Shown here: positions 11,992 to 60,824 of the stretch, piece after piece
How positions within the stretch are numbered: position 1 is the stretch's first letter
Layout of the letters: every line of letters begins with the position of its first letter
Assembly (NCBI GenBank): GCA_920105625.2
Contig: OV050032.1
Location: 71,157,879-71,221,878, forward strand
DNA length: 64,000 nt
Source of the DNA: Clusia tigrina
Lineage: Eukaryota; Arthropoda; Insecta; Diptera; Clusiidae
Direction: 5' to 3'
The notes under the pieces: model-generated
The model's database searches: none
The model's input: the letters and a program-made list of their open reading frames with translations, nothing else
Told to the model about the DNA's origin: nothing
Made by a program: the position numbers and the translations under genes

Positions 11992-12461
11992 TGTTTCTAT
12001 ACCGATTAGTTGGTTTACTAATCGGTTGCCGATTCCTTGGGTGCAATACCGAATAATCGTGATGATGACTTCAAGTGCAATACTGAAGTCTGATATCTCT
12101 TTGGGTACAGTACCGAAAGAGTTTTGTGGTTAATCAAGTATTAATTTTGAATTAACCTTGTGGTTGAAAGTGGCGACAAAGAAAACACTGTTGAATGGTT
12201 GACTTCAAAAGTATATCTCAATTTTTATTTATAAATTGATTGAATTTATATTATAATTTTGATTATGCTACAGAAATAAATATATTTGTGGTGTCTGCAA
12301 TTATGTGCAAGGCACCAGCGTTTGTGCGTACGTAGGGCAAATTAATACTTTAGCCCGCACGTGTACGGAAATGCTGATGAGGCTTCACATGCTGCGTTCA
12401 CGAGCGGGCATTGGTGATGGGAATTGCTGATTGGAGTTTTGCGTTGGAGCAGGTAAAAACA
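11992..12461 (-). repeat. LTR A, outer 3' LTR of the array (3' LTR of copy 1)
   Basis: On the plus strand the LTR runs from TGTTTCTATACC to GGTAAAAACA; on the coding strand it starts TG and ends CA. It is 470 bp against 503 for the standard LTR because about 33 bp are missing near 12390, between short ctg repeats. It shares cacatgctg and aggtaaaaaca with LTR B; the other LTRs have cacacgctg and aggtacaaaca wherever those positions survive (LTR F has lost them). Confidence 0.95.
12001..12157 (-). other. cluster of four inverted repeats in the LTR 3' half
   Basis: Four potential stem-loops lie in a row: accgattagt/actaatcggt (12001-12026, 10-bp perfect arms, 6-nt loop); gacttca/tgaagtc (12067-12090, perfect arms); ctctttgggtac/gtaccgaaagag (12097-12121, one mismatch); ggttaat/attaacc (12128-12157, perfect arms). 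The other LTRs have the same arrangement with few changes. On the coding strand they lie towards the PBS, in the expected R/U5 part, so they would form in the genomic RNA leader. The R boundaries cannot be placed from sequence alone. Confidence 0.6.
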
Positions 12462-12471
12462 TCCTCCCGCC
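12462..12471 (-). other. polypurine tract of copy 1 (representative of all copies)
   Basis: On the coding strand GGCGGGAGGA lies directly against the 3' LTR start TGTTT, as expected for the plus-strand primer. Equivalent tracts are at 20443-20452, 26572-26581 (one base changed), 34554-34563 (GGCGGGACGA), 43900-43909, 46539-46548 and 52893-52902. Confidence 0.75.
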
Positions 12472-12496
12472 TGTTGAGCATATTCTCAACTTCGAA

Positions 12497-14348
12497 TTAA
12501 ATGCTGTTTGCGCGTACCCGTACTCGAAAATCTGGAGCTCGTCGCCTCTTTTGCTTCGAATATCGCTGGTGAGAGATCCAGATAAGACAGATCAATGTGA
12601 TGAGCAAGCTGATATATCCGATGCTGAACTGATGGACTTCTCGGCTCTTAAGCGGTAAATCCATTTGCTCATTGTTTTGCAATTGTTGCACATGTTCATG
12701 TAGGACTTGAATATCGTCCGTCAGGTTGGACTGGTATTCTAATGAGTGTGATGCAGCCATTATATAATCTGCGATCCACTCAGTTAGATTCACTTTCGAT
12801 ATGATCGTGCTGGTGACCTTTGAATCATATGTCCGATGTGCCATTATGGTTGTATACTCATCTCTTATGGTGCATCCTTGTCTCAAGGTTAAGGTTCCTA
12901 TTCCCTCCAGTAATTCTCTAAGGATGTCTGAACCGCAGATGACGCTGATTGTACAAGCTGGCTGTGCGATGTAGATCCATGAGTTTTCTTTAAGTAATGG
13001 AATCCATTGAGGTGAGTCGTGTGTGCGATGAACCTTGCAGCTTTTTGGGTTTGGAGTTTGACATAATATTTCCATCTCACATAGTCGATTGGTTGATGTA
13101 ATGTGATGTGTTGGATGTAATTGCTTGCATACATGCATATTAGAATTGAATGCAGTGCATGTTGACAATTCTCCTGCTGATAACGAATAATATATGTCTC
13201 GATGTAGATTAGTGACTATATACTCGATTGTCCCTTCCAACATGAAAATTCCAGTGCCTCCCAATATAGGTAGTCGAGTCACATGTACCGATTCGAATGG
13301 TTCTTGATTAGTTAATGGTAACTTAAGACGCACAATCATCTCAGTTGGCGTGATGCGTGCTTCCACAGAGATGAGTTTAAGGATCTCAATGGTATTCTTG
13401 CTGGGAACTTGTAACGTTGGTGGGAGCTGGTCTTTGATTGCTCTCAGTTGTTGTTGCAGCTGAGGCGGATACAGCAGAAGAGGATTGAGCTGTCCATGAT
13501 GTGTGTCCGTCAGTACATCTAAAAAGAGCTCTTGATTTCGTTGGTAGTCCTGCATAGCCATAAGTACTCGACCGGACATCGCATTAAACATTTCGGCTAT
13601 TGCATGGTGGCATTCTGACTTTGTGAAGTTGTCCTGCTGGCTATATAAATATTTTATTTGCTTGTGTAGTTGTTGAATTTGATCGTCAGATTTCTTTCAA
13701 AATATTGCTAGTGGAGTCTATTACCGATGTTTGGTTTCGAATTAGGTGCAGAAGATGTTCTTCGTTGCGGGATATGCCGTTTATCGTTGCAGACATTTCT
13801 TTAGCATAGTTGGAGTCCAAAATTCCAAACAACGCATTAGACAAGCTTCCAACAATTGCTAATGGAGCGTCTCGCCGTTGACGATGGATTTGTTCGTGGT
13901 ATTGTAAGTACTCATCATCTTGTTGGATTAGCTGCCATTTAGTACGGAACTGGTCCACAGTTTTCTCACAATTAATTGTACCGCTTTGGATACGTGAACA
14001 CGCTCGCTGCATTGTAGTTATTCCTTGCATTATGTTGTTGCGCTCAAGCCAGTATTGGGACATATTGTAATACACAACTATATTCCAATCTGTTGTTGTT
14101 AAGTAAGTCACACCCATTTTTTCGAAATAGAGTCCTGTTTGACTTCCGAAAGGTATTTTAGTAATGGAGTCATCACCTGCTACTAGAGCAATTAGAAAGC
14201 ATATGCATAGCAACAATACTGACGAGGGTGACACAGATCGTCTTCGCTTAGCTGGTGTATGACTTATGCCGTCTTTGAGATTTGTGGCTTCTTCTACTGG
14301 AGCTGGATGCTTATCAGGTTGTTCTACTGGATTACTTTCGGTAGACAT
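12497..14348 (-). pseudogene. env: envelope glycoprotein, copy 1 (frameshifted)
   Basis: Env of roo-like BEL/Pao elements is a membrane fusion protein related in layout to baculovirus F proteins. Here the 5' part is an open frame ending at 13686, with the hydrophobic leader (SVLLLCICFLIALVAG) and the furin-type RQRR site followed by a hydrophobic fusion-peptide-like stretch. The 3' part (12497-13591) carries the C-terminal membrane segment (ISLLITLICLIWI) and a short basic tail. One extra C near 13698, relative to copies 3, 4, 6 and 7, breaks the frame. The start at 14348 is the first Met after the integrase tail; upstream the frame is continuous with pol, so the true N terminus is uncertain. 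Confidence 0.8.
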
Positions 14349-15728
14349 GGGTAATGGCGCGAGTAAATGGACGCCTCTTCTGGTGAGGCCTGTTGAAGTT
14401 CGAATTTCCGCTACTCGCACTAGGCCGTCAGCACCAGGAAATGTTTGAGTTACTCGACCAAGCCGCCATTTAATAACTGGCAAGTTATCCTCCTTTATTA
14501 ATACTATTGTACCAGGCTGTAAATTATGACGCATGGTATTCCATTTGTAGCGATGCTGGAGTTGGTTTAGATACTCCTTACTCCACCGACTCTAAAATTC
14601 CTGTTTCAACCTTGTGACTAAGTCCCATTGCTTCAGTAAATTTATGTTCAGATTCTCAGTGGGCTGGTCGACAACACTTGTCAATGGTGCACCTGTTAAG
14701 AAGAGACCTGGAGTTAATGCTGCGTAATCGTGTGGATCATCTGACATAGGAGTCAGCGGCCGCGAGTTAAGAATGGCTTCTATTTCAACCATAACTGTCT
14801 CTAACTCTTCGTATGTTAATCGGGCATTGGACACACTTTTGTAAAATAGATTCTTTGCCGATTTAACCGCTGCTTCCCATAAGCCGCCAAAATGTGGCGA
14901 TCTAGCAGGTGCGAAATGAAACTCGATTCCCTTGTGTGCGCAGAATTTCATCAGCTGTGATTTGGTATCTACGTTGTGGATGATGTCCGCAATCTGTCTC
15001 AATTGATTTCGTGCTCCTACGAAATTAGTCGCGTTGTCACAATGAAGATGCCGACAGTTCCCTCTACGGCTCACAAACCTCTTCAAGGCTCCGATAAAGG
15101 CGTTGGTCGTAAGGTTGCTTACCACTTCAATGTGTACGGCCTTAGTTGCAAAGCAACAAAATATCGCCACATAACACTTTTGTGGCGTCTTTCCCCTTTG
15201 ATTGTAATGAAATTTAAATGGCCCACAAAAATCGACTCCAGCGTGAATGATAGGTTTATTTGGTTGAACCCGCGATGCAGGTAACTGTCCCATGAGTTGC
15301 TGCAATGGCTTCGGCATAGCTTTAGTGCAAGATACACAGTTTTTTACGATTGATCTGGCTATTGTTTTCGCATTAACCGGCCAATAAGCTTCCCGTGTCG
15401 CTGCTACTAGACCTGCTGGGCCAACATGCTTGTTATCAATGTGGATGTGTGTCATCAATATTTTAGTGATATCACTCTGATATGGCAATAGGGCTTGATA
15501 TTTTGCTTCATGTGGTAGGGCTGAATTTGCTAATCGTCCTCCTACCCGCATAATGTCGTCTTTATCCAGAAATAGTGTAAGATCACCCATCCCTCTTCCA
15601 ACTGGTTTGTTGTGCTTGAGAAGTTTATATTCAGGATTGAATGCTTGTCTCTGCAGGTCCTTGATTATAGTCTGAGTAGCACCTTTAATTTCTTCTGCGT
15701 CGAGGTCGATGGATGTTTGAACTGGCAC
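14349..15728 (-). pseudogene. pol: integrase, copy 1 (two nonsense codons)
   Basis: The integrase inserts the cDNA into chromosomes. Visible in order are an N-terminal HHCC zinc finger (HIDNKH, then NCVSC), a DDE core with Asp in GVDFCGPF, Asp in HCDNATNF and Glu in GGLWEAA, and a DUF5641-like tail ending LLAPLP. A Trp codon became TAG at 14592-14594, after KQEF, cutting off the tail. A TGA at 15789 separates integrase from RNase H. The frame is otherwise intact, including the PNKPF stretch that is frameshifted in copies 3, 4 and 6. Confidence 0.85.
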
Positions 15729-15788
15729 ATTACGACAATTTTTAATGAATCGAAGTGCATATGCGGTGACTCTTTGAAGATGTGTCCA

Positions 15789-17383
15789 TCAATTTCGATG
15801 GTCAATCATTGAAGTAAACGACGGAATCTGTGACGTAGTAAGACATACCTGTCTCTTCTCTAATTCTGTGGTTGCATTGGCTGATGCCGCTGGCCACGAT
15901 GACGGTGGTCCGTATAGAAACAGTGGTATATAAAACCACATGCCTTGTGGTTTGAATTGACCCGGGTTGATGCCTCGTGAGATCATGTCTGCCGGGTTTT
16001 TGTCTGTAGGTACGTGACGCCATTGTTGCTTCACCGTTACTTCTTGTATAGCTGCCACTCGATTTGCCACAAAGGTGTGATAGGAAGACGAACTGGCAGA
16101 GATCCAGGCTAGCGTCACTTCATAGTCAGACCACAGAAAGCATTCGCCTGTCCATTGTAAAATATGTTTTACCCTGTCCAATAACTGGGCTGCTAACCGT
16201 GCAGCACAGAGCTCCAGCCGAGGGAGCGTTTGTTGTTTTGGTGGTGTAGTCTTTGATCTAGAACACAACAGCTGAACGCTCACAGATCCATCTGTTTTTA
16301 TCGACCTTGCATAAATAACAGCGCCATAGGCCTGCTCGGATGCATCGGCAAAAGCGTGTAATTCTCTCTGATGCACATTGTCCTTTGTGGTTGGAAATAC
16401 GTAGCGTGAAATTTGCAAGTTCTCAAGTTCCTGGATGTTTTCTCTAAACTGGCTCCAGAAGGTATGCAAGTCCATAGGGAGTGCTTCGTCCCAGCTTAAT
16501 TTTAGACGCCACAGCGATTTCATGAATATTTTTGCACATGAAACAACTGGTGACAAAAAACCTATTGGGTCGAAAATATGCGCGATGTCCGACAGTACTT
16601 TGCGTTTCATTATTTTGGCTGTTGTGCTCCATTTGGTCCTTATTAGGAAGTAATCAGTCCCAGGTTGCCACGTTAAACCAAGCGTTGTGATGATAAAACT
16701 ATCGTTGTCAAAATTCAATTGGATTGCTCGATCCTCTGCGTTGATGTTCGTTAACAGTGTTTTATTACTCGCAAACCATTTCCTCAACTTAAAACCTGCT
16801 GACTTGGTGAGGGAGTTCAATTCCTCCTGCACGTGCAAGGCCTCTGCTAATGTGTCGGCTCCACTCATAACATCGTCCACATAAAAATCTCGTTGTAAGC
16901 ATCTGGAGCCGTGCGTATATTGTGTGCTATGTTCCTTGGCTAATATGCCTAGACATTTTATCGCCAAATATGGTGCCGATGTGACTCCATAAGTCACTGT
17001 GTTTAATTGGTAACTTTTCAGAGGTTCGCTTGGCGTGTTCCTCCACAAGATTAGTTGATGCTTGCGGTCAGCTTCGTTCACGATAATTTGTCTGTACATT
17101 TTCTCGATATCTGCTGTAAAAACATATCTGCGTACTCGAAATCTCAAAGAACCGCAAATAAGTCTTCTTGAAGTTTTGGACCTGGTAGTAGCACATTGTT
17201 CAATGATACATTTGTTGACGTCTTCATTGATGCGTCGAACACGACACGCAACTTTGTGGTGGTTCTGTCTGGCTTCAGAATGCAGTGGTGAGGTAAGAAG
17301 TAGTGGGGTTGGTTTATGATTCCGCTAACTTCTTCCATGTGACCTAGCCGCAGGTATTCCTCCATGAAGGCCGTATACTGCAT
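15789..17383 (-). pseudogene. pol: reverse transcriptase and RNase H, copy 1 (frameshifted)
   Basis: The RT fingers (17144-17383, LRVVFDAS) are followed by the palm (15789-17147) with FTADIEKMY, the catalytic YVDD, then RNase H with FADAS, LPRLELCAARL and LWSDYEV. The first two segments are split because one A is missing from an A run near 17148 (caaagaacc here, caaaagaacc in copies 4, 5 and 7). The reading frame ends at a TGA (15789-15791) that replaces a Ser codon present in copies 2 and 3. Catalytic residues are preserved, so decay is by frame damage. Confidence 0.85.
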
Positions 17384-18909
17384 TTTGATGGAGGGTTTCT
17401 TTGCAATTTACGTTCGATGGCGTAAAAGCGTTGTAATGCGATAGCTTTCGAGTCTCCAAGAGGGCTTGCGTTATCAACGAAAGGCAAGCGCACAACGAAC
17501 TGTCCGTTCGCTGCTCGACACACCGTTTGGTTGAAAAATGCTTCGCAAGTTCTTTCTATCGCTGTCAGCGGCGGGCTGTTGGTGTCAAATTCTTCTAGCT
17601 GCCAGAAACGCTCGAGCTGTTGGGTTAATGATTCATCTTCATTCGTAACTCCAATGCCGCAGAACGTAGTCTCAGCTGTTGATGGAACTGTGATGTGTCC
17701 ACCAAGCACCCATCCGAACACGGTGTTTTGCAATATGGGGAGTCCGGTTCCCAATTTGATTTGGCCGCCTACTAGCAATTCCAGATAACATTCGTTGCCT
17801 ATAAGAATGTCAATTGGACCTGATTGATTAAACTCCGGATCAGCCAATTGAATATTTTTAGGAATAGGCCAGGCTGTCACGTCGAAACTCTGTGTTGGCA
17901 GTGGATGTGTAATTTTTGGCAGTATGACAACTTCAATTCGAGCTGAGTAACTAGTCAATCGTGACTCAAGTTTAATGTTGGCTCGGTGAGTAGCGCGTTG
18001 TTGAATTTCCCCAATTCCATCAAAGTACTGTGGATTGTATTGTGTTGGTAATCCGAGCTTCTTTGCCAACCTGTCCGTAATGTAGTTTGTCTGCGAACCG
18101 CCGTCCAAAATTGCACGGCATTGAAATTCATTGCCACGGAAGTCATTGACTTTTAAGACGACAGTGCTCAACAGCACATGTTTCACGCCCGCACGATTGA
18201 CCGGGGACACTAATGAAGTGGTGAGTGGTTTTTCTATGGCACTGGTATAGCTATGTAACTCCACGGTAGGCTCACTTACGAATGTTGTGAGTGTCTGAGA
18301 TGACCCTTGACTGGACTGACCCGAGTTATTGGATGGGCCCTTAGCTAGCTGTTGATCAAAATGCACTAATGAGTTGTGCTTCTTGTTGCATTTGGTGCAT
18401 CCTCTCATTGAACAAGTTTTCGATGTATGGCCATTTTTCATACAATTCGCACATAACTTGTGTTGTTTAATTATATCAAAACGCTGATGCGGCGTTTTCG
18501 CCAAGAATTGTGCGCATGCCAAAAGTTGGTGATTGCCTTTGCATACGAGGCAGCCCGTTGCGGCCTTGGTTGCTAAGAATAGCGTTGAATGATACTTCGC
18601 GTTTGTCGATTTATTGTTGATAATTTTGTGTTGTGGTTCTCGGTCTTCACATGATTGAAAACGTTTTTCTAAGAATTTCAATAGGCGGTCAATGGGTTGG
18701 AACTCCTGCGGCTGATCTAGCGTCAGTTCATACTCGGATCTTGACGTTTTATCTAACTTCTGCAATAAAAGATACTCCAAAATTGTGTGGAAGCTATCTA
18801 CGGGAACTCCTTGGCTTTTTAACGCGTAACTGCATTCCTTGGCTGCATCGTGTACAGTTTTAAGCGTTGAGCCCATTTCACTGCTAGCATTCTTTATATT
18901 AAACAGCAC
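17344..18909 (-). pseudogene. gag-pol: Gag C terminus and aspartic protease, copy 1
   Basis: Three zinc knuckles (CLVCKGNHQLLAC, CANCMKNGHTSKTC, CTKCNKKHNSLVH) mark the nucleocapsid part. They are followed by a retropepsin-type domain with ILDGGSQTNYIT (a D-G-G variant of the usual D-S/T-G) and the long DUF1758-like region. The frame ends out of phase at 17344 because of the gatggagggt indel, whereas copies 5 and 7 read through into RT. Upstream it is out of phase with the Gag core; the two frames overlap by only 16 nt. Confidence 0.85.
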
Positions 18910-19873
18910 AAGATTTGCCAGGCTGCGTCATAGTTTTTCTCGCATGCTGGCAAGTGACCGATGAGTGCTTTAGCTTCTCCGGTTACGTTGGCAGCCAAGT
19001 AAAACATTTTTTGTGTGTTGCTTATTGGCTGAGCATGTATCATCTTAACATACAAATCGCAAAATGGTATCCACGTTGAATAGCTACCGTCAAAAACTGG
19101 CAAGGTAACTTTAGGCAAAAGCACATTTAATGCCTGTGGTATGGTGTGGATTGGCGTGGAGTTGCTCGGTGTACTGACTGGAATATGTTGTCGTAACTTA
19201 ATGAGTACGTTTTGAAACGCATCTTCGATCTCGTAGAATTTGTCCGCATCATAACCATCAATTTCCGCCAGGTTTGTTCGTTGCCATATCCATTGGTTAT
19301 TTTGCACCAGATTATCGTTGTAACGTATCAATAGTTTTGTTTTGATATCATAGTACACTGGTGGATGTGACTGATCAGTTTCCGAGTGCACATCCCCAAT
19401 GACTCGAGAAATTGCACGCACCAACGCCTTTTGCAGCCGTACTAGGGCTAAGAGTCCATCGCCTTCCTGATGGCTGGTTCGCGGTGTGCTGTCCTTGCGG
19501 TTAGAGCCTCCTTGATGGACGTGGAAGGGACCTTCAAGTTGCAAGGCGTTTTACGCTTTTCTCCTTCCTCATTGATGATGTGCTGGAATTTGGTGAACAG
19601 CCAGTCGTAGAGGTTTGCTACGTTGCCTCTATAATCCTGTTTGAAGTACTCATGATTAACTTCGGCTAGCTCGAGTACGAGATGATGTTGATGTTCGAAT
19701 GTAGACCATGCCTCCTTCAGAGTCTTCATGCGTTTACTGGCATATTCGATGGTTTTACGGTCTTGTGTGTCCTTTTTAAAGTTGCTCACCAGTTGCTCTA
19801 TTGCCGAGCCCACTTCATACTGTGCCCTGGTCAACTTGTCCAACTGCTCAATTGTTTCTTGGTGATGCGCCAT
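18894..19873 (-). pseudogene. gag: Gag N terminus and core, copy 1 (frameshifted)
   Basis: Gag forms the particle that packages the element RNA. An N-terminal segment rich in charged helices (19448-19873, starting MAHHQETIEQLDKL) is followed in another frame by the DUF1759-like core (18894-19544, LPVFDGSYSTWIPF and LAANVTGEAKALIGHLPAC). The break is a 1-nt loss near 19545 (ttgcaaggcg), shared by copies 1-6 but absent from copy 7. The core then ends at DAAWQILCCLI, apparently because of a deletion present in every copy that keeps this region. The ATG is about 45 nt downstream of the PBS. Confidence 0.82.
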
Positions 19874-19918
19874 CCTTCAGAATCTCGCCTTGTGGTAAAC
19901 AGGAGATAGTGAGTTCTT

Positions 19919-19936
19919 ATCTCGCCGGGGCCTCCA
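19919..19936 (-). other. primer-binding site of copy 1 (representative of all copies)
   Basis: On the coding strand TGGAGGCCCCGGCGAGAT begins 3 nt after the 5' LTR end. The leading TGG fits pairing with a tRNA 3' CCA. The tRNA was not identified. The same site occurs at 26056-26073, 34030-34047, 43376-43393, 46221-46238, 52369-52386 and 60302-60319. Confidence 0.7.
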
Positions 19937-19939
19937 AAA

Positions 19940-20442
19940 TGTTTCTATACCGATTAGTTGGTTTACTAATCGGTTGAAGATTCCTTGGGTGCAATAACGA
20001 AGGATCGTGATGATGACTTCAAGTGCAATACTGAAGTCTGATATCTCTTTGGGTACAGTACCGAAAGAGTGTTGTGGTTAATCAAGTATTAATTTTGAAT
20101 TAACCTTGTGGTTGAAAGTGGCGACAAAGAAAACACTGTTGAATGGTTGACTTCAAAAGTATATCTCAATTTTTATTTATAAATTGATTGAATTTATATT
20201 ATAATTTTGATTATGCTAAAGAAATAAATATATTTGTGGTGTCTGCAATTATGTGCAAGGCACCAGCGTTTGTGCGTACGTAGGGCAAATTAATACTTTA
20301 GCCTGCACGTGTACGGAAATGCTGATGAGGCTTCACATGCTGTATATCCGTTCATCGGGTGTGCTGCTTATTCTGCGTTCACGAGCGGGCATTGGTGATG
20401 GGAATTGCTGATTGGAGTTTAGCGTTGGAGCAGGTAAAAACA
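19940..20442 (-). repeat. LTR B, shared between copies 1 and 2
   Basis: This 503-bp LTR serves as 5' LTR of copy 1 and 3' LTR of copy 2. It has gttgaaga where the others have gttgccga, and shares cacatgctg and the aggtaaaaaca end with LTR A, suggesting recent exchange between A and B. Confidence 0.95.
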
Positions 20443-20477
20443 TCCTCCCGCCTGTTGAGCATATTCTCAACTTCGAA

Positions 20478-20722
20478 TTAAATGCTGTTTGCGCGTACCC
20501 GTACTCGAAAATCTGGAGCTCGTCGCCTCTTTTGCTTCGAATATCGCTGGTGAGAGATCCAGATAAGACAGATCAATGTGATGAGCAAACTGATATATCC
20601 GATGCTGAACTGATGGACTTCTCGGCTCTTAAGCGGTAAATCCATTTGCTCATTGTTTTGCAATTGTTGCACATGTTCATGTAGGACTTGAATATCGTCC
20701 GTCAGGTTGGACTGGTATTCTA
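20478..20722 (-). pseudogene. env: env C-terminal remnant, copy 2
   Basis: Only the last part of env survives: a short helical stretch (QQLQNNEQMDLPL), the membrane anchor (ISLLITLICLIWI) and the basic tail. The signal sequence, cleavage site, fusion peptide and ectodomain are deleted, so this copy cannot encode an envelope protein. Confidence 0.85.
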
Positions 20723-23383: not shown

Positions 23384-23619
23384 AGAACCGCAAATAAGTC
23401 TTCTTGAAGTTTTGGACCTGGTAGTAGCACATTGTTCAATGATACATTTGTTGACGTCTTCATTGATGTGTCGAACACGACACGCAACTTTGTGGTGGTT
23501 CTGTCTGGCTTCAGAATGCAGTGGTGAGGTAAGAAGTAGTGGGGTTGGTTTATGCTTCCGCTAACTTCTTCCATGTGACCTAGCCGCAGGTATTCCTCCA
23601 TGAAGGCCGTATACTGCAT
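23380..23619 (-). pseudogene. pol: RT fingers fragment, copy 2
   Basis: These 79 codons hold the N-terminal RT motif, here LRVVFDTS with Ala changed to Thr relative to the other copies. The frame is closed on both sides by the two indels shared with copies 1 and 3: the protease-RT junction (gatggagggt) and the shortened A run near 23384. Confidence 0.75.
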
Positions 23620-26010: not shown

Positions 26011-26076
26011 CCTTCAGAATCTCGCCTTGTGGTCAACAGGAGATCGTGAGTTCTTATCTCGCCGGGGCCTCCAAAA

Positions 26077-26571
26077 TGTTTCTATACCGATTAGTTGTTT
26101 TACTAATCGGTTGCCGATTCCTTGGGTGCAATACCGAAGGATCGTGATGATGACTTCAAGTGCAATACTGAAGTCTGATATCTCTTTGGGTACAGTACCG
26201 AAAGAGTGTTGTGGTTAATCAAGTATTAATTTTGAATTAACCTTGTGGTTGAAAGTGGCGACAAAGAAAACACTGTTGAATGGTTGACTTCAAAAGTATA
26301 TCTCAATTTTTATTTATAAATTGATTGAATTTATATTATAATTTTGATTATGCTACAGAAATAAATATATTTGTGGTGTCTGCAAGTATGTGCAAGGCAC
26401 GTGCGTACGTAGGGCAAATTAATACTTTAGCCCGCACGTGTACGGAAATGCTGATGAGGCTTCACACGCTGTATATACGTTCATCGGGTGTACTGCTTAT
26501 TCTGCGCTCACGAGCGGGCATTGGTGATGGGAATTGCTGATTGGAGTTTTGCGTTGGAGCAGGTACAAACA
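26077..26571 (-). repeat. LTR C, shared between copies 2 and 3
   Basis: The LTR is 495 bp; 8 bp are missing at gcaaggcacgtgcg, where the others read gcaaggcaccagcgtttgtg. It carries gcaagtatg like LTRs E and H, against gcaattatg in A, B, D and G. The adjacent purine tract has one base changed. Confidence 0.95.
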
Positions 26572-26606
26572 TCCTCTCGCCTGTTGAGCATATTCTCAAC
26601 TTCGAA

Positions 26607-45610: not shown

Positions 45611-45645
45611 CAGATTATCGTTCTAACGTATCAATAGTTTTGTTT

Positions 45646-46538: not shown

Positions 46539-46573
46539 TCCTCCCGCCTGTTGAGCATATTCTCAACTTCGAA

Positions 46574-49414: not shown

Positions 49415-49838
49415 AGTTTTTCACGATTGATCTGGCTATTGTTTTCGCATTAACCGGCCAATAAGCTTCCCGTGTCGCTGCTACTAGACCTGCTGGGCCA
49501 ACATGCTTGTTATCAGTGTGGATGTGTGTCATCAATATTTTAGTGATATCACTCCGATATGGCAATAGGGCTTGATATTTTGCTTCATGTGGTAGGGCTG
49601 AATTTGCTAATCGTCCTCCTACCCGCATAATGTCGTCTTTATCCAGAAATAGTGTAAGATCACCCATCCCTCTTCCAACTGGTTTGTTGTGCTTGAGAAG
49701 TTTATATTCTGAGTAGCACCTTTAATTTCTTCTGCGTCGAGGTCGATGGATGTTTGAACTGGCACATTACGACAATTTTTAATGAGTCGAAGTGCATATG
49801 CGGTGACTCTTTGAAGATGTGTCCATCAATTTCGATGG
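49332..49838 (-). pseudogene. pol: integrase zinc-finger segment, copy 6
   Basis: The HHCC finger frame (49332-49667) ends at the linker T insertion shared with copies 3 and 4. Upstream, a 40-bp deletion (tatattctgagtagc) removes part of the linker between RNase H and integrase and shifts the frame; the same deletion is found in copy 7. Confidence 0.78.
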
Positions 49839-51359
49839 TCAATCATTGAAGTAAACGACGGAATCTGTGACGTAGTCAGACATACCTGTCTCTTCTTTCG
49901 AGTCTCCAAGAGGGCTTGCGTTATCAACGAAAGGCAAGCGCACAACGAACTGTCCGTTCGCTGCTCGACACACCGTTTGGTTGAAAAATGCTTCGCAATT
50001 TCTTTCTATCGCTGTTAGCGGCGGGCTGTTGGTGTCAAATTCTTCTAGCTGCCAGAAACGCTCGAGCTGTTGGGTTAATGATTCATGTTCATTCGTAACT
50101 CCAATACCGCAGAACGTAGTCTCAGCTGTTGATGGATCTGTGATGTGTCCACCAAGCACCCATCCGAACACGGTGTTTTGCAATATGGTGAGTCCGGTTC
50201 CCAATTTGATTTGGCCGAGTACTAGCAATTCCAGATAACATTCGTTGCCTATAAGAATGTCAATTGGGCCTGATTGATTAAACTGCGGATCAGCCAATTG
50301 AATATTTTTAGGAATAGGCCAGGCTGTTACGTCGAAACTCTGTGTTGGCAGTGGATGTGTAATTTTTGGCAGTATGACAACTTCAATTCGGGCTGAGTAA
50401 CTAGTCAATCGTGACTCAAGTTTAATGTTGGCTCGGTGAGTAGCGCGTTGTTGAATTTCCCCAATTCCATCAAAGTATTGCGGATTGTATTGTGTTGGTA
50501 ATCCGAGCTTCTTTGCCAACCTGTCCGTAATGTAGTTTGTCTGCGAATCGCCGTCCAAAATTGCACGGCATTGAAATTCATTGCCACGGAAGTCATTGAC
50601 TTTTAAGACGACAGTGCTCAACAGCACATGTTTCACGCCCGCACGATTGACCGGGGACACTAATGAAGTGGTGAGTTGTTTTTCTATGGCACTGGTATAG
50701 CTATGTAACTCCACGGTAGGCTCACTTACGAATGTTGTGAGTGTCTGAGATGACCCTTGACTGGACTGACCCGAGTTATTGGATGGGCCCTTAGCTAGCT
50801 GTTGATCAAAATGCACTAATGAGTTGTGCTTCTTGTTGCATTTGGTGCATCCTCTCATTGAACAAGTTTTCGATGTATGGCCATTTTTCATACAATTCGC
50901 ACATAACTTGTGTTGTTTAATTATATCAAAACGCTGATGCGGCGTTTTCGCCAAGAATTGTGCGCATGCAAAAAGTTGGTGATTGCCTTTGCATACGAGG
51001 CAGCCCGTTGCGGCCTTGGTTGCTGAGAATAGCGTTGAATGATACTTCGCGTTTGTCGATTTATTGTTGATAATTTTGTGTTGTGGTTCTCGGTCTTCAC
51101 ATGATTGAAAACGTTTTTCTAAGAATTTCAATAGGCGGTCAATGGGTTGGAACTCCTGAGGCTGATCTAGCGTCAGTTCATACTCGGATCTTGACGTTTT
51201 ATCTAACTTCTGCGATAAAAGATACTCCAAAATTGTGTGGAAGCTATCTACGGGAACTCCTTGGCTTTTTAACGCGTAAATGCATTCCTTGGCTGCATCG
51301 TGTACAGTTCTAAGCGTTGAGCCCATTTCACTGCTAGCATTCTTTATATTAAACAGCAC
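49839..51359 (-). pseudogene. gag-pol: Gag C terminus and aspartic protease, copy 6, fused past an RT deletion
   Basis: Knuckles and protease are open for 506 codons. The protease motif is ILDGDSQTNYI, with the second Gly changed to Asp, a private change that probably disables the active-site loop. The last 18 or so codons (EETGMSDYV...) are RNase H-end DNA read out of phase, brought in by the 1.6-kb deletion of RT and RNase H. Confidence 0.82.
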
Positions 51360-52323
51360 AAGATTTGCCAGGCTGCGTCATAGTTTTCCTCGCATGCTGG
51401 CAAGTGACCGATGAGTGCTTTAGCTTCTCCGGTTACGTTGGCAGCCAAGTAAAACATTTTTTGTGTGTTGCTTATTGGCTGAGTATGTATCATCTTAACA
51501 TACAAATCTCGAAATGGTATCCACGTTGAATAGCTACCGTTAAAAACTGGCAAGGTAACTTTAGGCAAATGCACATTTAATGCCTGTGGTATGGTGTGGA
51601 TTGGCGTGGAGTTGCTCGGTGTACTGACTGGAATATGTTGTCGTAACTTAATGAGTACGTTTTGAAACGCATCTTCGATCTCGTAGAATTTTTCCGCATC
51701 ATAACCATCAATTTCCGCCAGGTTTGTTCGTTGCCATATCCATTGGTTATTTTGCACCAGATTATCGTTGTAACGTATCAATAGTTTTGTTTTGATATCA
51801 TAGTACACTGGTGGATGTGACTGATCAGTTTCCGAGTGCACATCCCCAATGACTCGAGAAATTGCACGCGCCAACGCCTTTTGCAGCCGTACTAGGGCTA
51901 AGAGTCCATCGCCTTCCTGATGGCTGGTTCGCGGTGTGCTGTCCTTGCGGTTAGAGCCTCCTTGATGGACGTGGAAGGGAACTTCAAGTTGCAAGGCGTT
52001 TTACGCTTTTCTCCTTCCTCATTGATGATGTGCTGTAATTTGGTGAACAGCCAGTCGTAGAGGTTTGCTACGTTGCCTATATAATCCTGTTTGAAGTACT
52101 CATGATTAACTTCGTCTAGCTCGAGTACGAGATGATGTTGATGTTCGAATGTAGACCATGCCTCCTTCAGAGTCTTCATGCGTTTACTGGCATATTCGAT
52201 GGTTTTACGGTCTTGTGTGTCCTTTTTAAAGTTGCTCACCAGTTGCTCTATTGCCGAGCCCACTTCATACTGTGCCCTGGTCAACTTGTAAAACTGCTCA
52301 ATTGTTTCTTGGTGATGCGCCAT
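51344..52323 (-). pseudogene. gag: Gag N terminus and core, copy 6
   Basis: Full-length N-terminal segment (51898-52323, MAHHQETIEQFYKL, with LDKL changed) and core (51344-51994, LPVFNGSYSTW with Asp to Asn). The internal frame break and the ILCCLI end are the shared ones. Confidence 0.82.
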
Positions 52324-52389
52324 CCTTCAGAATCTCGCCTTGTGGTAAACAGGCGATCGTGAGTTCTTATCTCGCCGGGGCCTCCAAAA

Positions 52390-52892
52390 TGTTTCTATAC
52401 CGATTAGTTGGTTTACTAATCGGTTGCCGATTCCTTGGGTGCAATACCGAAGGATCGTGATGATGACTTCAAGTGCAATACTGAAGTCTGATATCTCTTT
52501 GGGTACAGTACCGAAAGAGTGTTGTGGTTAATCAAGTATTAATTTTTAATTAACCTTGTGGTTGAAAGTGGCGACAAAGAAAACACTGTTGAATGGTTGA
52601 CTTCAAAAGTATATCTCAATTTTTATTTATAAATTGATAGAATTTATATTATAATTTTGATTATGCTACAGAAATAAATATATTTGTGGTATCTGCAATT
52701 ATGTGCAAGGCACCAGCGTTTGTGCGTACGTAGGGCAAATTAATACTTTAGCCCGCACGTGTACGGAAATGCTGATGAGGCTTCACACGCTGTATATCCG
52801 TTCATCGGGTGTACTGCTTATTCTGCGTTCATGAGCAGGCATTGGTGATGGGAATTGCTGATTGGAGTTTTGCGTTGGAGCAGGTACAAACA
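52390..52892 (-). repeat. LTR G, shared between copies 6 and 7
   Basis: A 503-bp LTR. Private changes: aatttttaattaacc near 52545, aaattgatag near 52630, ggtatctgc near 52688 and catgagcagg near 52830. Confidence 0.95.
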
Positions 52893-52927
52893 TCCTCCCG
52901 CCTGTTGAGCATATTCTCAACTTCGAA

Positions 52928-54778
52928 TTAAATGCTGTTTGCGCGTACCCGTACTCGAAAATCTGGAGCTCGTCGCCTCTTTTGCTTCGAATATCGCTGG
53001 TAAGAGATCCAGATAAGACAGATCAATGTGATGAGCAAACTGATATATGCGATGCTGAACTGATGGACTTCTCGGCTCTTAAGCGTTAGATCCATTTGCT
53101 CATTGTTTTGCAATTGTTGCACATGTTCATGTAGGACTTGAATATCGTCCGTCAGGTTGGATTGGTATTCTAATGAGTGTGTTGCAGCCATTATATAATC
53201 TGCGATCAACTCAGTTAGATTCACTTTCGATATGATCGTGCTGGTGACCTTTGAAACATATGTCCGATGTGCCATTGTGGTTGTATACTCATCTCTTATG
53301 GTGCATCCTTGTCTCAAGGTTAAGGTTCCTATTCCCTCCAGTAATTCTGTAAGGATGTCTGAACCGCAGATGACGCTGATTGTACGAGCTGGCTGTGCGA
53401 TTTAGATCCATGAGTTTTCTTTAAGTAATGGAATCCATTGAGGTGAGTCGTTTGTGCGATGAACCTTGCAGCTTTTTGGGTTTGGAGTTTGACATAATAT
53501 TTCCATCTCACATAGTCGATTGGTTGATGTAATGCGATGTGTTGGATGTAATTGCTTGCATACATGCAAATTAGAATTGAATGCAGTGCATGTTGACAAT
53601 TCTCCTGCTGATAACGAATAATATTTGTCTCGATGTAGATTAGTGACTATATACTCGATTGTCCCTTCCAACATGAAAATTCCAGTGCCTCCCAATATAG
53701 GTAGTCGAGTCACATGTACCAATTCGAATGGTTCTTGATTACTTAATGGTAACTTAAGACGCACAATCATCTCAGTTGGCGTGATGCGTGCTTCCACAGA
53801 GATGAGTTTAAGGATCTCAATGGTATTCTTGCTGGGAACTTGTAACGTTGGTGGGAGATGGTATTTGATTGCTCTCAGTTGTTGTTGCAGCTGAGACGGA
53901 TACAGCAAAAGAGGATTGAGCTGTCCATGATGTGTGTCCGTCAGTACATCTAAAAAGAGCTCTTGATTTGGTTGGTAGTCCTGCATAGCCATAAGTACTC
54001 GACCGGACATCGCATTAAACATTTCGGCTATTGCATGGTGGGATTCTGACTTTGTGAAGTTGTCCTGCTGGCTATATAAATATTTTATTTGCTTGTGTAG
54101 TTGTTGAATTTGATCGTCAGATTTCTTTAAAATATTGCTAGTGGAGTCAATTACCGATATTTGGTTTCGAATTAGGTGCAGAAGATGTTCTTCGTTGCGG
54201 GATATGCCGTTTATCGTTGCAGACATTTCTTTAGCATAGTTGGAGTCCAAAATTCCAAACAACGCATTAGACAAGCTTCCAACAATTGCTAATGGAGCGT
54301 CTCGCCGTTGACGATGGATTTGTTCGTCGTATTGTAAGCACTCATCATCTTGTTGGATTAGCTGCCATTTAGTACGGAACTGGTCCACTGTTTTCTCACA
54401 ATTAATTGTACCGCTTTGGATACGTGAACACGCTCGCTGCATTGCAGTTATTCCTTGCATTATGTTGTTGCGCTCAAGCCAGTATTGGGACATATTGTAA
54501 TACACAACTATATTCCAATCTGTTCTTGTTAAGTAAGTCAGACCCATTTTTTCGAAATAGAGTCCTGTTTGACTTCCGAAAGGTACCTTAGTAATGGGGT
54601 CATCACCTGCTACTAGAGCAATTAGAAAGCATATGCATAGCAACAATACTGACGAGGGTGACACAGATCGTCTTCGCTTAGCTGGTGTATGACTTATGCC
54701 GTCTTTGAGATTTGTGGATTCTTCTACTGGAGCTGGATGCTTATCAGGTTGTTCCACTGGATTACTTTCGGTAGACAT
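52928..54778 (-). pseudogene. env: envelope glycoprotein, copy 7 (single nonsense codon)
   Basis: Leader, RQRR site, fusion-peptide-like stretch, ectodomain and membrane anchor are all in one frame. A TAA at 53402-53404, replacing the Tyr codon of SWIYIAQP, cuts off the last part (52928-53401) with the anchor. Sequence variants (YQPNQELF, NLHVC) match copy 3 rather than the neighbour copy 6. Confidence 0.85.
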
Positions 54779-55516
54779 GGGTAATGGCGCGAGTAAATGG
54801 ACGCCTCTTCTGGTGAGGCCTGTTGAAGTTCGAATTTCCGCTACTCGCACTAGGCCGTCAGCACCAGGGAATGTTTGAGTTACTCGACCAAGCCGCCATT
54901 TAATAACTGGCAAGTTATCCTCCTTCATTAATACCATTGTACCAGGCTGTAAATTACGACGCATGGTCTTCCATTTGTAGCGATGCTGGAGTTGGTTTAG
55001 ATACTCCTTACTCCACCGACTCCAAAATTCCTGTTTCAACCTTGTGACTAAGTCCCATTGCTTCAGTAAATTTATGTTCAGATTCTCAGTGGGCTGGTCG
55101 ACAACACTTGTCAATGGTGCACCTGTTAAGAAGTGACCTGGAGTTAATTCTGCGTAATCGTGTGGATCATCTGACATAGGAGTCAGCGGCCGCGAGTTAA
55201 GAATGGCTTCTATTTCAACCATAACTGTCTCTAACTCTTCGTATTTTAATCGGGCATTGGACAAACTTTTGTAAAATAGATTCTTTGCCGATTTAACCGC
55301 TGCTTCCCATAAGCCGCCAAAATGTGGCGATCTAGCAGGTGCGAAATGAAACTCGATTCCCTTGTGTGCGCAGAATTTCATCAGTTGTGATTTGGTATCT
55401 ACGTTGTGGATGATGTCCGCAATCTGTCTCAATTGATTTCGTGCTCCTACGAAATTAGTCGCGTTGTCACAATGAAGATGCCGACAGTTCCCTCTTCGGC
55501 TCACAAACCTCTTCAA
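54779..55516 (-). pseudogene. pol: integrase core and tail, copy 7
   Basis: The second Asp and Glu of the DDE triad and the DUF5641-like tail are open and continue into env. The frame begins at KRFVSRRGN because about 8 bp are missing near 55535 (gataaaggcgtaaggttg for gataaaggcgttggtcgtaaggttg), separating it from the part with the first Asp. Confidence 0.82.
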
Positions 55517-56013
55517 GCCTCCGATAAAGGCGTAAGGTTGCTTACCACTTCAATGTGTACGGCCTTAGTTGCAAAGCAACAAAATATCGCCACATAACAC
55601 TTTTGTGGCGTCTTTCCCCTTTGATTGTAATGAAATTTAAATGGCCCACAAAAATCGACTCCAGCGTGAATGAAAGGTTTATTTGGTTGAACCCGCGATG
55701 CAGGTAACTGTCCCATGAGTTGCTGCAATAACTTCGGCATAGCTTTAGTGCAAGATACACAGTTTTTCACGATTGATCTGGCTATTGTTTTCGCATTAAC
55801 CGGCCAATAAGCTTCCCGTGTCGCTGCTACTAGACCTGCTGGGCCAACATGCTTGTTATCAATGTGGATGTGTGTAATCAATATTTTAGTGATATCACTC
55901 CGATATGGCAATAGGGCTTGATATTTTGCTTCATGTGGTAGGGCTGAATTTGCTAATCGTCCTCCTACCCGCATAATGTCGTCTTTATCCAGAAATAGTG
56001 TAAGATCACCCAT
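55513..56013 (-). pseudogene. pol: integrase zinc finger and first core motif, copy 7
   Basis: HHCC finger (HIHIDNKH, NCVSC), an unshifted linker (VQPNKPF) and the first catalytic Asp (GVDFCGPF) in one frame, ending at the small deletion near 55535. The upstream link to RNase H is destroyed by the 40-bp deletion near 56055. Confidence 0.8.
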
Positions 56014-56171
56014 CCCTCTTCCAACTGGTTTGTTGTGCTTGAGAAGTTTATATTCTGAGTAGCACCTTTAATTTCTTCTGCGTCGAGGTCGATGGATGTT
56101 TGAACTGGCACATTACGACAATTTTTAATGAATCGAAGTGCATATGCGGTGACTCTTTGAAGATGTGTCCA

Positions 56172-57433
56172 TCAATTTCGATAGTCAATCATTGAAGTAA
56201 ACGACGGAATCTGTGACGTAGTAAGACATACCTGTCTCTTCTCTAATTCTGTGGTTGCATTGGCTGATGCCGCTGGCCACGATGACGGTGGTCCGTATAG
56301 AAACAGTGGTATATAAAACCACATGCCTTGTTGTTGGAATTGACCCGGGTTGATGCCTCGTGAGATCATGTCTGCCGGGGTTTTGTCTGTAGGTACGTGA
56401 CGCCATTGTTGCTTCACCGTTACTTCTTGTATAGCTGCCACTAAATTTGCCACAAAGGTGTGATAGTAAGACGAACTGGCAGAGATCCAGGCTAGCGTCA
56501 CTTCAGAGTCAGACCACAGAAAGCATTCGCCTGTCCATTGTAAAATATGTTTTACCCTGTCCAATAACTGGGCTGCTAACCGTGCAGCACAGAGCTCCAG
56601 CCGAGGGAGCGTTTGTTGTTTTGGTGGTGTAGTCTTTGATCTAGAACACAACAGCTGAACGCTCACAGATCCATCTGTTTTTATCGACCTTGCATAAATA
56701 ACAGCGCCATAGGCCTGCTCGGATGCATCGGCAAAAGCGTGTAATTCTCTCTGATGCACATTGTCCTTTGTGGTTGGAAATACGTAGCGTGAAATTTGCA
56801 AGTTCTCAAGTTCCTGGATGTTTTCTCTAAACTGGCTCCAGAAGGTATGCAAGTCCATAGGGAGTGCTTCGTCCCAGCTTAATTTTAGACGCCACAGCGA
56901 TTTCATGAATATACAGCGATACATGAAACAACTGGTGACAAAAAACCTATTGCGTCGAAAATATGCGCGATGTCCGACAGTACTTGGCGTTTCGTTATTT
57001 TGGCTGTTGTGCTCCATTTGGTCCTTATTAGGAAGTAATCAGTCCCAGGTTGCCACGTTAAACCAAGCTTTGTGATGATAAATTTATCGTTGTCAAAATT
57101 CAATTGGATTGCTCGATCCTCTGTGTTGATGTTCGTTAACAGTGTTTTATTACTCGCACACCATTTCCTCAACTTAAAACCTGCTGACTTGGTGAGGGAG
57201 TTCAATTCCTCCTGCACGCGCAAGGCTTCTGCTAATGTGTCGGCTCCACTCATAACATCGTCCACATAAAAATCTCGTTGTAAGCATCTGGAGCCGTGTG
57301 GATATTGTGTGCCATGTTCCTTGGCTAATATGCGTAGACATTTTATCGCCAAATATGGTGCCGATGTGACTCCATAAGTCACTGTGTTTAATTGGTAACT
57401 TTTCAGAGGTTCGCTTGGCGTGTTCCTCCACAA
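56172..57433 (-). pseudogene. pol: RT palm and RNase H, copy 7
   Basis: The palm with YVDD (56903-57433) and RNase H (56172-57017; FADAS, LPRLELCAARL and LWSDSEV all present) are separated by a small rearrangement near 56912 (gaatatacagcgatacatg for gaatatttttgcacatg). The C-terminal end is the TGA shared with copies 1, 4 and 6. Confidence 0.82.
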
Positions 57434-58340
57434 GTTGATGCTTGCGGTCAGCTTCGTTCACGATAATTTGTCTGTACATTTTCTCGATATCTGCTGTAAA
57501 AACATATCTGCGTACTCGAAATCTCAAAAGAACCGCAAATAAGTCTTCTTGAAGTTTTGGACCTGGTAGTAGCACATTGTTCAATGATACATTTGTTGAC
57601 GTCTTCATTGATGCGTCGAACACGACACGCAACTTTGTGGTGGTGCTGTCTGGCTTCAGAACGTAGTGGTGAAGTAAGAAGTAGTGTGGTTGGTTTATGC
57701 TTCCGCTAACTTCTTCCATGTGACCTAGCCGCAGGTATTCCTCTATGAAGGCCGTATACTGCATTTTGATGACGGGGTTTCTTTGTAATTTACGTTCGAT
57801 GGCGTAAAAGCGTTGTAATGCGATAGCTTTCGAGTCTCCAAGAGGGCTTGCGTTATCAACGAAAGGCAAGCGCACAACGAACTGTCCGTTCGCTGCTCGA
57901 CAAACCGTTTGGTTGAAAAATGCTTCGCAAGTTCTTTCTATCGCTGTTAGCGGCGGGCTGTTGGTGTCAAATTCTTCTAGCTGCCAGAAACGCTCGAGCT
58001 GTTGGGTTAATGATTCATCTTCATTCGTAACTCCAATACTGCAGAACGTAGTCTCAGCTGTTGATGGAACTGTGATGTGTCCACCAAGCACCCATCCGAA
58101 CACGGTGTTTTGCAATATGGGGAGTCCGGTTCCCAATTTGATTTGGCCGCCTACTAGCAATTCCAGATAACATTCGTTGCCTATAAGAATGTCAATTGGA
58201 CCTGATTGATTAAACTCCGGATCAGCCAATTGAATATTTTTAGGAATAGGCCAGGCTGTCACGTCGAAACTCTGTGTTGGCAGTGGATGTGTAATTTTTG
58301 GCAGTATGACAACTTCAATTCGGGCTGAGTAACTAGTCAA
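57174..58340 (-). pseudogene. pol: protease C-terminal region joined to RT fingers, copy 7
   Basis: A 388-codon frame passes from the DUF1758-like region through NPVIKMQYTAF into the RT fingers (LRVVFDAS) and FTADIEKMY. This is the only copy in which this junction is open together with a complete upstream protease region. The 5-bp deletion at QLILWRN, shared with copy 4, then shifts the frame, so the last 60 or so codons are out-of-phase reading. Confidence 0.83.
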
Positions 58341-58382
58341 TCGTGACTCAAGTTTAATGTTGGCTCGGTGAGTAGCGCGTTG

Positions 58383-59291
58383 TTATATTTCCCCAATTCC
58401 ATCAAAGTACTGCGGATTGTATTGTGTTGGTAATCCGAGCTTCTTTGCCAACCTGTCCGTAATGTAGTTTGTCTGCGAACCGCCGTCCAAAATTGCACGG
58501 CATTGAAATTCATTGCCACGGAAGTGATTTACTTTTAAGACGACAGTGCTCAACAGCACATGTTTCACGCCCGCACGATTGACCGGGGACACTAATGAAG
58601 TGGTGAGTGGTTTTTCTATGGCACTGGTATAGCTATGTAACTCCACGGTAGGCTCACTTACGAATGTTGTGAGTGTCTGAGATGACCCTTGACTGGACTG
58701 ACCCGAGTTATTGGATGGGCCCTTAGCTAGCTGTTGATCAAAATGCACTAATGAGTTGTGCTTCTTGTTGCATTTGGTGCATCCTCTCATTGAACAAGTT
58801 TTCGATGTATGGCCATTTTTCATACAATTCGCACATAACTTGTGTTGTTTAATTATATCAAAACGCTGATGCGGCGTTTTCGCCCAGAACTGTGCGCATG
58901 CAAAAAGTTGGTGATTGCCTTTGCTTACGAGGCAGCCCGTTGCGGCCTTGGTTGCTGAGAATAACGTTGAATGATACTTCGCGTTTGTCGATTTATTGTT
59001 GATAATTTTGTGTTGTGGTTCTCGGTCTTCACATGATTGAAAACGTTTTTCTAAGAATTTCAATAGGCGGTCAATGGGTTGGAACTCCTGAGGCTGATCT
59101 AGCGTCAGTTCATACTCGGATCTTGACGTTTTATCTAACTTCTGCAATAAAAGATACTCCAAAATTGTGTGGAAGCTATCTACGGGAACTCCTTGGCTTT
59201 TTAACGCGTAAATGCATTCCTTGGCTGCATCGTGTACAGTTTTAAGCGTTGAGCCTATTTCACTGCTAGCATTCTTTATATTAAACAGCAC
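58383..59291 (-). pseudogene. gag-pol: Gag zinc knuckles and protease motif, copy 7
   Basis: The frame covers the knuckles and ILDGGSQTNYIT and ends at a private TAA (58383-58385, gttatattt for gttgaattt) in the same frame as the following protease-RT segment. The first knuckle reads CLVSKGNH, losing its second Cys. Confidence 0.82.
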
Positions 59292-60256
59292 AAGATTTGC
59301 CAGGCTGCGTCATAGTTTTCCTCGCATGGTGGCAAGTGATCGATGAGTGCTTTAGCTTCTCCGGTTACGTTGGCAGCCAAGTAAAACATTTTTTGTGTGT
59401 TGCTTATTGGCTGAGTATGTATCATCTTAACATACAAATCGCGAAATGGTATCCACGTTGAATAGCTACCGTCAAAAACTGGCAAGGTAACTTTAGGCAA
59501 ATGCACTTTTAATGCCTGTGGTATGGTGTGGATTGGCGTGGAGTTGCTCGGTGTACTGACTGGAATATGTTATCGTAACTTAATGAGTACGTTTTGAAGC
59601 GCATCTTCGATCTCGTAGAATTTGTCCGCATCATAACCATCAATTTCCGCCAGGTTTGTTCGTTGCCATATCCATTGGTTATTTTGCACCAGATTATCGT
59701 TGTAACGTATCAGTAGTTTTGTTTTGATATCATAGTACACTGGTGGATGTGACTGATCAGTTTCCGAGTGCACATCCCCAATGACTCGAGAAATTGCACG
59801 CACAAACGCCTTTTGCAGCCGTACTAGGGCTAAGAGTCCATCGCCTTCCTGATGGCTGGTTCGCGGTGTGCTGTCCTTGCGGTTAAAGCTTCCTTGATGG
59901 ACGTGGAAGGGAACTTCAAGTTGCACTGGCGTTTTACGCTTTTCTCTTTCCTCATTAATGATGTGCTGTAATTTGGTGAACAGCCAGTCGTAGAGGTTTG
60001 CTACGTTGCCTCTATAGTCCTGTTTGAAGTACTCATGATTAACTTCGTCTAGCTCGAGTACGAGATGATGTTGATGTTCGAATGTAGACCATGCCTCCTT
60101 CAGAGTCTTCATGCGTTTACTGGCATATTCGATGGTTTTACGGTCTTGTGTGTCCTTTTTAAAGTTGCTCACCAGTTGCTCTATTGCCGAGCCCACGTCA
60201 TACTGTGCCCTGGTCAACTTGTCCAACTGCTCAATTGTTTCTTGGTGATGCGCCAT
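59276..60256 (-). pseudogene. gag: Gag N terminus and core, copy 7 (unshifted, one nonsense codon)
   Basis: A 228-codon frame (59570-60256) runs from MAHHQETIEQLDKL straight into the core, the junction reading KTPVQLEVPF. Copies 1-6 are frameshifted here. A CAA became TAA at 59570-59572 (after LIKLR); the rest of the core (59276-59506) continues in the same frame to the common ILCCLI end. This copy defines the original reading frame of Gag in the array. Confidence 0.85.
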
Positions 60257-60322
60257 CCTTCAGAATCTCGCCTTGTGGTAAACAAAAGATCGTGAGTTCT
60301 TATCTCGCCGGGGCCTCCAAAA

Positions 60323-60824
60323 TGTTTCTATACCGATTAGTTGGTTTACTAATCGGTTGCCGATTCCTTGGGTGCAATACTGAAGGATCGTGATGATGAC
60401 TTCAAGTGCAATACTGAAGTCTGATATCTCTTTGGGTACAGTACCGAAAGAGTGTGTGGTTAATCAAGTATTAATTTTGAAGTAACCTTGTGGTTGAAAG
60501 TGGCGACAAAGAAAACACTGTTGAATGGTTGACTTCAAAAGTATATCTCAATTTTTATTTATAAATTGATTGAATTTATATTATAATTTTGATTACGCTA
60601 CAGAAATAAATATATTTGTGGTGTCTGCAAGTATGTGCAAGGCACCAGCGTTTGTGCGTACGTAGGGCAAATTAATACTTTAGCTCGCACGTGTATGGAA
60701 ATGCTGATGAGGCTTCACACGCTGTATATCCGTTCATCGGGTGTACTGCTTATTCTGCGTTCACGAGCGGGCATTGGTGATGGGAATTGCTGATTGGAGT
60801 TTTGCGTTGGAGCAGGTACAAACA
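60323..60824 (-). repeat. LTR H, outer 5' LTR of the array (5' LTR of copy 7)
   Basis: A 502-bp LTR, lacking one base at gagtgtgtgg. It ends GGTACAAACA at the satellite. It shares tagctcgcacgtgtatgg with LTR E. As the outermost 5' LTR it would be the only promoter able to drive a transcript starting at the array edge. Confidence 0.95.

Follow-up and report, generated by a model that had tools for sequence, protein, structure and literature searches.

How does one site in satellite DNA come to hold seven copies of the same retrotransposon, laid head to tail and sharing their long terminal repeats (LTRs)? The question is raised by a window of 64,000 nucleotides (nt) from the fly Clusia tigrina (assembly GCA_920105625.2, contig OV050032.1, forward-strand positions 71,157,879 to 71,221,878), in which eight LTRs alternate with seven internal regions (U1 to U7) from window position 11992 to 60824, the first and the last element both being LTRs. 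The answer that we consider probable is that a BEL/Pao element inserted here once and was amplified at the DNA level by unequal exchange, after which its units decayed neutrally while exchanging stretches with one another.

One insertion site around the array

All LTRs and internal regions, and the genes of the element, lie on the minus strand (Table 1); that all copies have one orientation was described in a sequence-only reading that preceded our analysis. Measured from LTR start to LTR start, units U1 to U7 are 7948, 6137, 7974, 9346, 2845, 6148 and 7933 nt long, and the LTR is about 503 nt with plus-strand ends TGTTT and AAACA (TG...CA). Pieces aligned between units by BLAST are 93.6–98.9% identical, which rules out chance as the source of the repetition.

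The whole array is enclosed by a single 5-nt target duplication, CATAG on the left and AATAG on the right, the two copies agreeing at four of five bases. Since CATAG is found at the insertion position in 73 of 77 satellite monomers (59 of 61 on the left and 14 of 16 on the right), the mismatch is most likely due to a later change in the right copy. Further target duplications at the LTR junctions and satellite between the copies, both of which the sequence-only reading had named as arguments against a single site, were looked for and not found. The same 24 nt stand on the primer-binding side of the LTR at all seven LTRs that adjoin an internal region there, and the other side is the element’s own sequence in six of seven cases (LTR 6 is truncated), so that a second target duplication could not fit at these places. 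A search of the array with the last two left-flank monomers, taken as a dimer, gave no match with an expect value (E) below 2.3. The 24 nt, identical to the left of LTRs 2–8, also contain a candidate primer-binding site, with TGG 3–4 bases past the LTR.

The satellite register is likewise unbroken across the site, as that reading had claimed: the monomers continue in one phase, with no base lost or gained, and the insertion site lies after position 35 of the unit defined by Tandem Repeats Finder (TRF). The monomers differ from the left-flank majority monomer at 0–12 of 196 positions on the left (61 monomers) and at 3–11 on the right (16 monomers). Two of its descriptions need changing. To call the array clean is too strong, as four of the seven units have large insertions or deletions (indels), 33 nt are missing from LTR 1 and only 298 nt remain of LTR 6; and what it called proviruses are better described as copies of an LTR element of the BEL/Pao class that carries an env-like domain.

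The element and its founder state

Judged by its Pfam domains, the element is a BEL/Pao LTR retrotransposon that also carries an env-like domain (Baculo_F). The domains recognised were DUF1759 (gag), aspartyl protease, reverse transcriptase (RT), Peptidase_A17 (Pao), integrase, DUF5641 and Baculo_F, with the aspartyl protease, RT (RVT_1) and integrase (H2C2, rve) matches falling below their Pfam cut-offs. The long open frame of U2 has them in BEL/Pao order: RVT_1 (64–181), Peptidase_A17 (239–400, E 3e-48), Integrase_H2C2 (621–668), rve (688–809) and DUF5641 (897–946). When we asked for a Retroviridae-type pol, the strongest pol match among the Pfam profiles was the Pao peptidase. A 5-nt target duplication is typical for BEL/Pao, and the TG...CA ends together with the 5-nt duplication (one mismatch) are in line with this class. 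Baculo_F was found in U6 downstream of integrase (E 2e-32, profile positions 7–548 of 609) and in one frame with DUF5641. Part of the integrase, DUF5641 and Baculo_F lie there in a single open frame of 948 amino acids (46574–49420, minus strand), and env thus appears to be fused in frame to pol in this element. Searches of Rfam (at gathering scores), for transfer RNA genes, and of solved structures and IMG/VR with the RT piece gave no matches.

In none of the seven units are gag, pol and env open together, and two of the interruptions are held in common. The first is a frame change inside gag, seen in all six units that keep this stretch (U1–U4, U6 and U7; U5 lacks it), whose alignment is free of indels over 151 columns; the frame boundaries are equal in U1–U4 and U6 and, on the downstream side only, in U7, which has an extra break upstream, and in U1 and U2 DUF1759 is divided between two frames. 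The second separates the protease and RT frames in all six units that keep the place (U1–U5 and U7; U6 lacks it), the sole indel over 111 columns being a one-base insertion at their far end in U5; here the boundaries are equal in U1–U3 and, on the RT side, in U5, with U4 and U7 broken further nearby. Taken together, the two common frame changes suggest a single founder that was already interrupted.

The units have decayed without visible selection. Their internal regions differ pairwise by 1.0–2.2% (U5 included), with 18–65 private substitutions per unit (unit positions from 500 on). Over four coding stretches, with each position counted once, the 238 private changes comprised 176 replacement, 49 silent and 13 stop changes, where 168.5, 56.0 and 13.5 were expected (p=0.32 for silent changes), and the shared changes comprised 37, 9 and 1, where 33.3, 11.1 and 2.7 were expected (p=0.61). 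Codon positions 1, 2 and 3 received 93, 89 and 88 private and 23, 21 and 16 shared changes, in counts where two of the four stretches overlap and some sites are doubled. The differences look neutral, and the shared changes do not lean to silent sites, which argues that the units would not derive from different active elements.

Probable exchange between units

Shared variants are far more numerous than recurrent mutation would produce: 50 two-state sites are shared (46 of them internal), compared with a mean of 1.3 and a maximum of 7 in 300 simulations on a star with uniform rates. Among pairs of these sites 440 of 1225 are in conflict, suggesting that short stretches were exchanged among units. 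Deletion junctions are also identical between units, for 1741 nt in U2 and U5, 40 nt in U6 and U7, and 5 nt in U4 and U7, the last near two substitutions shared by U4 and U7. The 1741-nt junction, which has about 1 nt of microhomology, is the same in U2 and U5 despite a divergence of 1.7% over their common internal sites, indicating that a short stretch including the deletion may have been transferred. Moreover, U3 and U7 differ by 1.29% in the left part of the unit and 1.93% in the right, and U3 and U4 by 1.17% in the right part and 1.71% in the left. Exchange between units after insertion is well supported by these comparisons.

The closest pair is U1 and U2, at 1.0% versus 1.19–1.83% for the other 14 pairs (U5 excluded). 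This closeness is even across the two halves of the unit (0.96 and 1.01), and the pair ranked first in 4042 of 5000 block bootstraps, with U4 and U6 next (911 of 5000). Seven sites common to U1 and U2 alone are spread over unit positions 465 to 7595, as predicted by a duplication of unit length, and one such duplication giving rise to U1 and U2 is moderately supported. A two-unit higher-order pattern in the shared sites (U4 with U6; U3 with U5 and U7) was also considered and rejected, being contradicted by the right part of the unit, where U3 goes with U4.

Origin of the array

In the sequence of events that we favour, integrase would have inserted one BEL/Pao element with an env-like domain into the 196-bp satellite, with the one 5-nt target duplication seen at the ends of the array. 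Misaligned exchange between LTRs, on sister chromatids or homologues, could then have produced a dimer, and exchange between misaligned units longer arrays. The units would afterwards have decayed without visible selection, acquiring private deletions and one foreign insertion that can be seen in them today, and short stretches, including the 1741-nt deletion of U2 and U5, would have been swapped among them. The single site, the founder state shared by the units and the neutral decay are directly visible at the locus. That all seven units were made by exchange, with none coming from multimeric DNA copied from RNA (complementary DNA, cDNA), is what we infer.

One insertion rather than seven, as the sequence-only reading had proposed, is borne out by the one bracketing duplication, the lack of satellite found in the array, the element’s own sequence flanking the LTRs, the frame changes common to six of six informative units and the neutral divergence. 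Seven separate insertions were rejected on the single target duplication, the lack of inter-unit satellite and the common frame changes, and nested insertion of LTR elements into LTRs on the inner LTR flanks, which are the element’s own on both sides where these survive. That reading had left the choice between unequal exchange and multimeric circles; exchange after insertion gains from the even closeness of U1 and U2 and from the common deletions, and is not proven for every unit.

Several observations weigh against our explanation. The mean divergence of the LTRs, 1.94% (95% interval 1.23–2.71, without LTR 6), overlaps that of the internal regions, 1.52% (1.34–1.69, without U5), and amplification may therefore date back to the insertion itself. 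The two frame changes might be family-wide traits, or programmed, instead of founder damage. LTR 1 and LTR 2, which adjoin U1 and U2 on the left, differ at 9 of 470 positions, where other pairs (without LTR 6) differ at 4 of 502 to 15 of 502, and these two alone have two particular sites in common; they do not have the closeness of the internal regions, which slightly weakens the exchange explanation and slightly strengthens insertion of a multimer. The spacing of conflicting sites (2736 nt) does not significantly exceed that of compatible ones (2663 nt, p=0.32), and relatedness does not track distance in the array (r=0.23, exact Mantel p=0.17). A runs test for mosaicism reached p=0.016 in U4 only (uncorrected, six units tested; 0.68 in U1, 0.83 in U2, 0.07 in U3, 0.22 in U6 and 0.29 in U7), making a block mosaic suggestive in U4 alone. 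As a separate observation on the LTRs, LTR 5 resembles the outer LTR 8 unusually closely for two LTRs so far apart, with 4 differences in 502 positions and two sites that are theirs alone.

The strongest rival, which we regard as unlikely, is the single insertion of a ready-made multimer, either a tandem cDNA copied from a read-through transcript or a circle with one LTR, with divergence and exchange coming later, a route proposed in PMC11899658. It would leave one target duplication and is favoured by the overlap of LTR and internal divergence. Across six units, no more than 30 of the 163 variable sites are shared, which would make most of the divergence younger than the separation of the units; however, this fraction is ordinary for gradual growth too, with simulated gradual trees equally low in 19–21% of cases, and so gives the multimer no support. 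A strict one-time star, considered on the same sites, is for the same reason not required by the data. On the other hand, none of the other 14 pairs is as close as U1 and U2 across the internal region, which suggests a later duplication of unit length, and a cDNA of seven units would be nearly 50 kb, which is to our knowledge beyond the packaging of known particles.

Much less likely still is serial capture, in which cDNAs or circles from different genomic copies would have entered a resident LTR by homologous recombination, along the integrase-independent route of yeast Ty elements. Each event would add one LTR and one internal region with no new target duplication, and recombination during reverse transcription could yield conflicting shared variants. 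At the same time, the shared variants have no silent or third-position excess, and the same two frame changes in six informative units mean that the donors would all have to come from one non-autonomous line. Least probable of all is an assembly artefact or miscount, the true locus having fewer or more units: 8-kb tandem repeats are known to be hazardous for assembly, but simple assembler repetition does not explain the private substitutions in every unit (18–65) or the private or pair-specific indels in most.

The satellite neighbourhood

The neighbourhood of the array does undergo exchange of the kind that we propose, as seen in the left-flank satellite. There, 15 monomers at 8072–11011 are near-copies of those at 4740–7679, with 5 differences in 2940 nt at a spacing of 3332 nt, or 17 monomers, and the duplication ends about 1 kb from the array. 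At 0.2% it looks younger than the divergence within the array (1.5%), and unequal exchange is therefore probably still going on beside the array. The flanks are not equivalent: the recent duplication with its 3332-nt step is on the left only, the 17-monomer step was not seen among the 16 right-flank monomers, and monomers differ per pair by 13.0 on the right versus 10.6 on the left. Nor does the step continue across the array (lag-17 mean of 11.8 across it versus 6.8 within the left flank), and it therefore cannot give a finer measure of the empty site.

It is tempting to go further and see here a dead retroelement becoming a satellite, the exchange regime of the 196-bp satellite having taken over the BEL/Pao element as an 8-kb repeat that continues to grow, shrink and convert and whose copy number varies between individuals. 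We put this forward tentatively, as a possibility. The array as it stands consists of seven units of 2845–9346 nt with internal regions 1.0–2.2% apart, and not of many homogenised monomers of equal length as in a satellite with long monomers.

Comparison with known arrays

Tandem arrays with shared LTRs are already published, and the present one differs from them in the number of units (seven), the BEL/Pao class and the place inside a satellite. Of 28 clear LTR-sharing tandems reported from a single rice genome, 10 have perfect 5-nt duplications, and a rice pangenome gave 266 candidates; tandem LTR structures are also reported in Arabidopsis, almond and cotton (Morales-Diaz et al. 2025, PMC11899658). 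Like our array, the plant tandems have alternating LTRs and internal regions, an LTR at both ends, shared inner LTRs and one 5-nt duplication, and are read as one insertion; unlike it, they are gypsy and copia elements, with two units at the two loci detailed (PMC11899658). The same paper leaves undecided whether such tandems originate by exchange or by insertion of a multimer, and cites tandem insertions for Drosophila and LTR-sharing tandems for kangaroo centromeres, the latter resembling our array as tandem retroelements of an animal that share LTRs, there in centromeric DNA.

Human HERV-K108 (7p22.1) likewise consists of proviruses sharing an LTR, at a site also found with a single provirus, with a solo LTR or empty; it differs in having two units and belonging to HERV-K, and no satellite setting is mentioned in the portion of the paper used here (PMC4149278). 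The HERV-K proviruses K111 and K222 of human pericentromeres lie in centromeric repeats and have been amplified and recombined at the DNA level, gene conversion included, but as copies over many loci and chromosomes and not as a single LTR-sharing chain (PMC4425911). In maize, the tandem repeats CRM1TR and CRM4TR also come from an LTR element, and non-allelic repair between sister-chromatid LTRs has been proposed as the way in which they grew; their monomers are made of LTR and untranslated-region pieces, whereas here whole elements are repeated (PMC3648361). Among the literature matches listed, judged mostly by title and the beginning of the abstract, we recognised no seven-unit BEL/Pao array, a result that does not show that none has been described.

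Tandems of two units preserve little of their past. With its seven units, its private and shared variants, its common deletions and a satellite on either side to serve as a ruler, this one locus allows exchange and multimer insertion to be tested against each other, in an array that is long and holds a legible record of its own copying. The evidence favours growth at the DNA level from one already interrupted founder, which would tie the insertion of a transposon to the exchange process of a satellite.

Features of the individual units

Only U1, U3 and U7 are near full length, and U1 and U3 align end to end with U7 at 97.0 and 97.5% identity. The coordinates of all units, LTRs and flanks are given in Table 1.

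Table 1. The array and its flanks in window coordinates
Feature	Positions	Strand	Remarks
Left flank, 196-bp satellite	1–11991		61.2 monomers; TRF period 196, 94% matches
Target duplication, left copy	11987–11991		CATAG
LTR 1 (outer)	11992–12461	-	470 nt; private 33-nt deletion
U1 internal	12462–19939	-	Near full length; in-frame pol stops; private one-base insertion shifting the frame in the env part
LTR 2	19940–20442	-	503 nt
U2 internal	20443–26076	-	1741-nt deletion at 20722 (also in U5); private 96-nt deletion; open frame of 946 amino acids, RT to DUF5641
LTR 3	26077–26571	-	495 nt; private 8-nt deletion
U3 internal	26572–34050	-	Near full length
LTR 4	34051–34553	-	503 nt
U4 internal	34554–43396	-	1474-nt insertion and smaller deletions
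Later insertion inside U4	35208–36681		TG...CA ends; ATAC duplication at 35204–35207 and 36682–36685
LTR 5	43397–43899	-	503 nt
U5 internal	43900–46241	-	Four deletions, three above 1.5 kb; the 1741-nt one at 44179, junction as in U2; one with about 10 nt of filler
LTR 6	46242–46539	-	Truncated to 298 nt
U6 internal	46540–52389	-	Private deletion (about 1.6 kb) across RT and Peptidase_A17; 40-nt deletion common with U7; open frame of 948 amino acids, integrase to Baculo_F
LTR 7	52390–52892	-	503 nt
U7 internal	52893–60322	-	Near full length; 40-nt deletion common with U6; 5-nt deletion common with U4
LTR 8 (outer)	60323–60824	-	502 nt; ...ACAAACA at the satellite
Target duplication, right copy	60825–60829		AATAG
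Right flank, 196-bp satellite	60826–64000		16.2 monomers; TRF

The filler at one of the U5 deletions is of the kind left by end joining. The insertion inside U4 has no relative elsewhere in the window and, given its TG...CA ends and 4-nt ATAC duplication, looks like the later solo LTR of another, unrelated element. It contains about two copies of a 143-nt repeat that are 85% alike.

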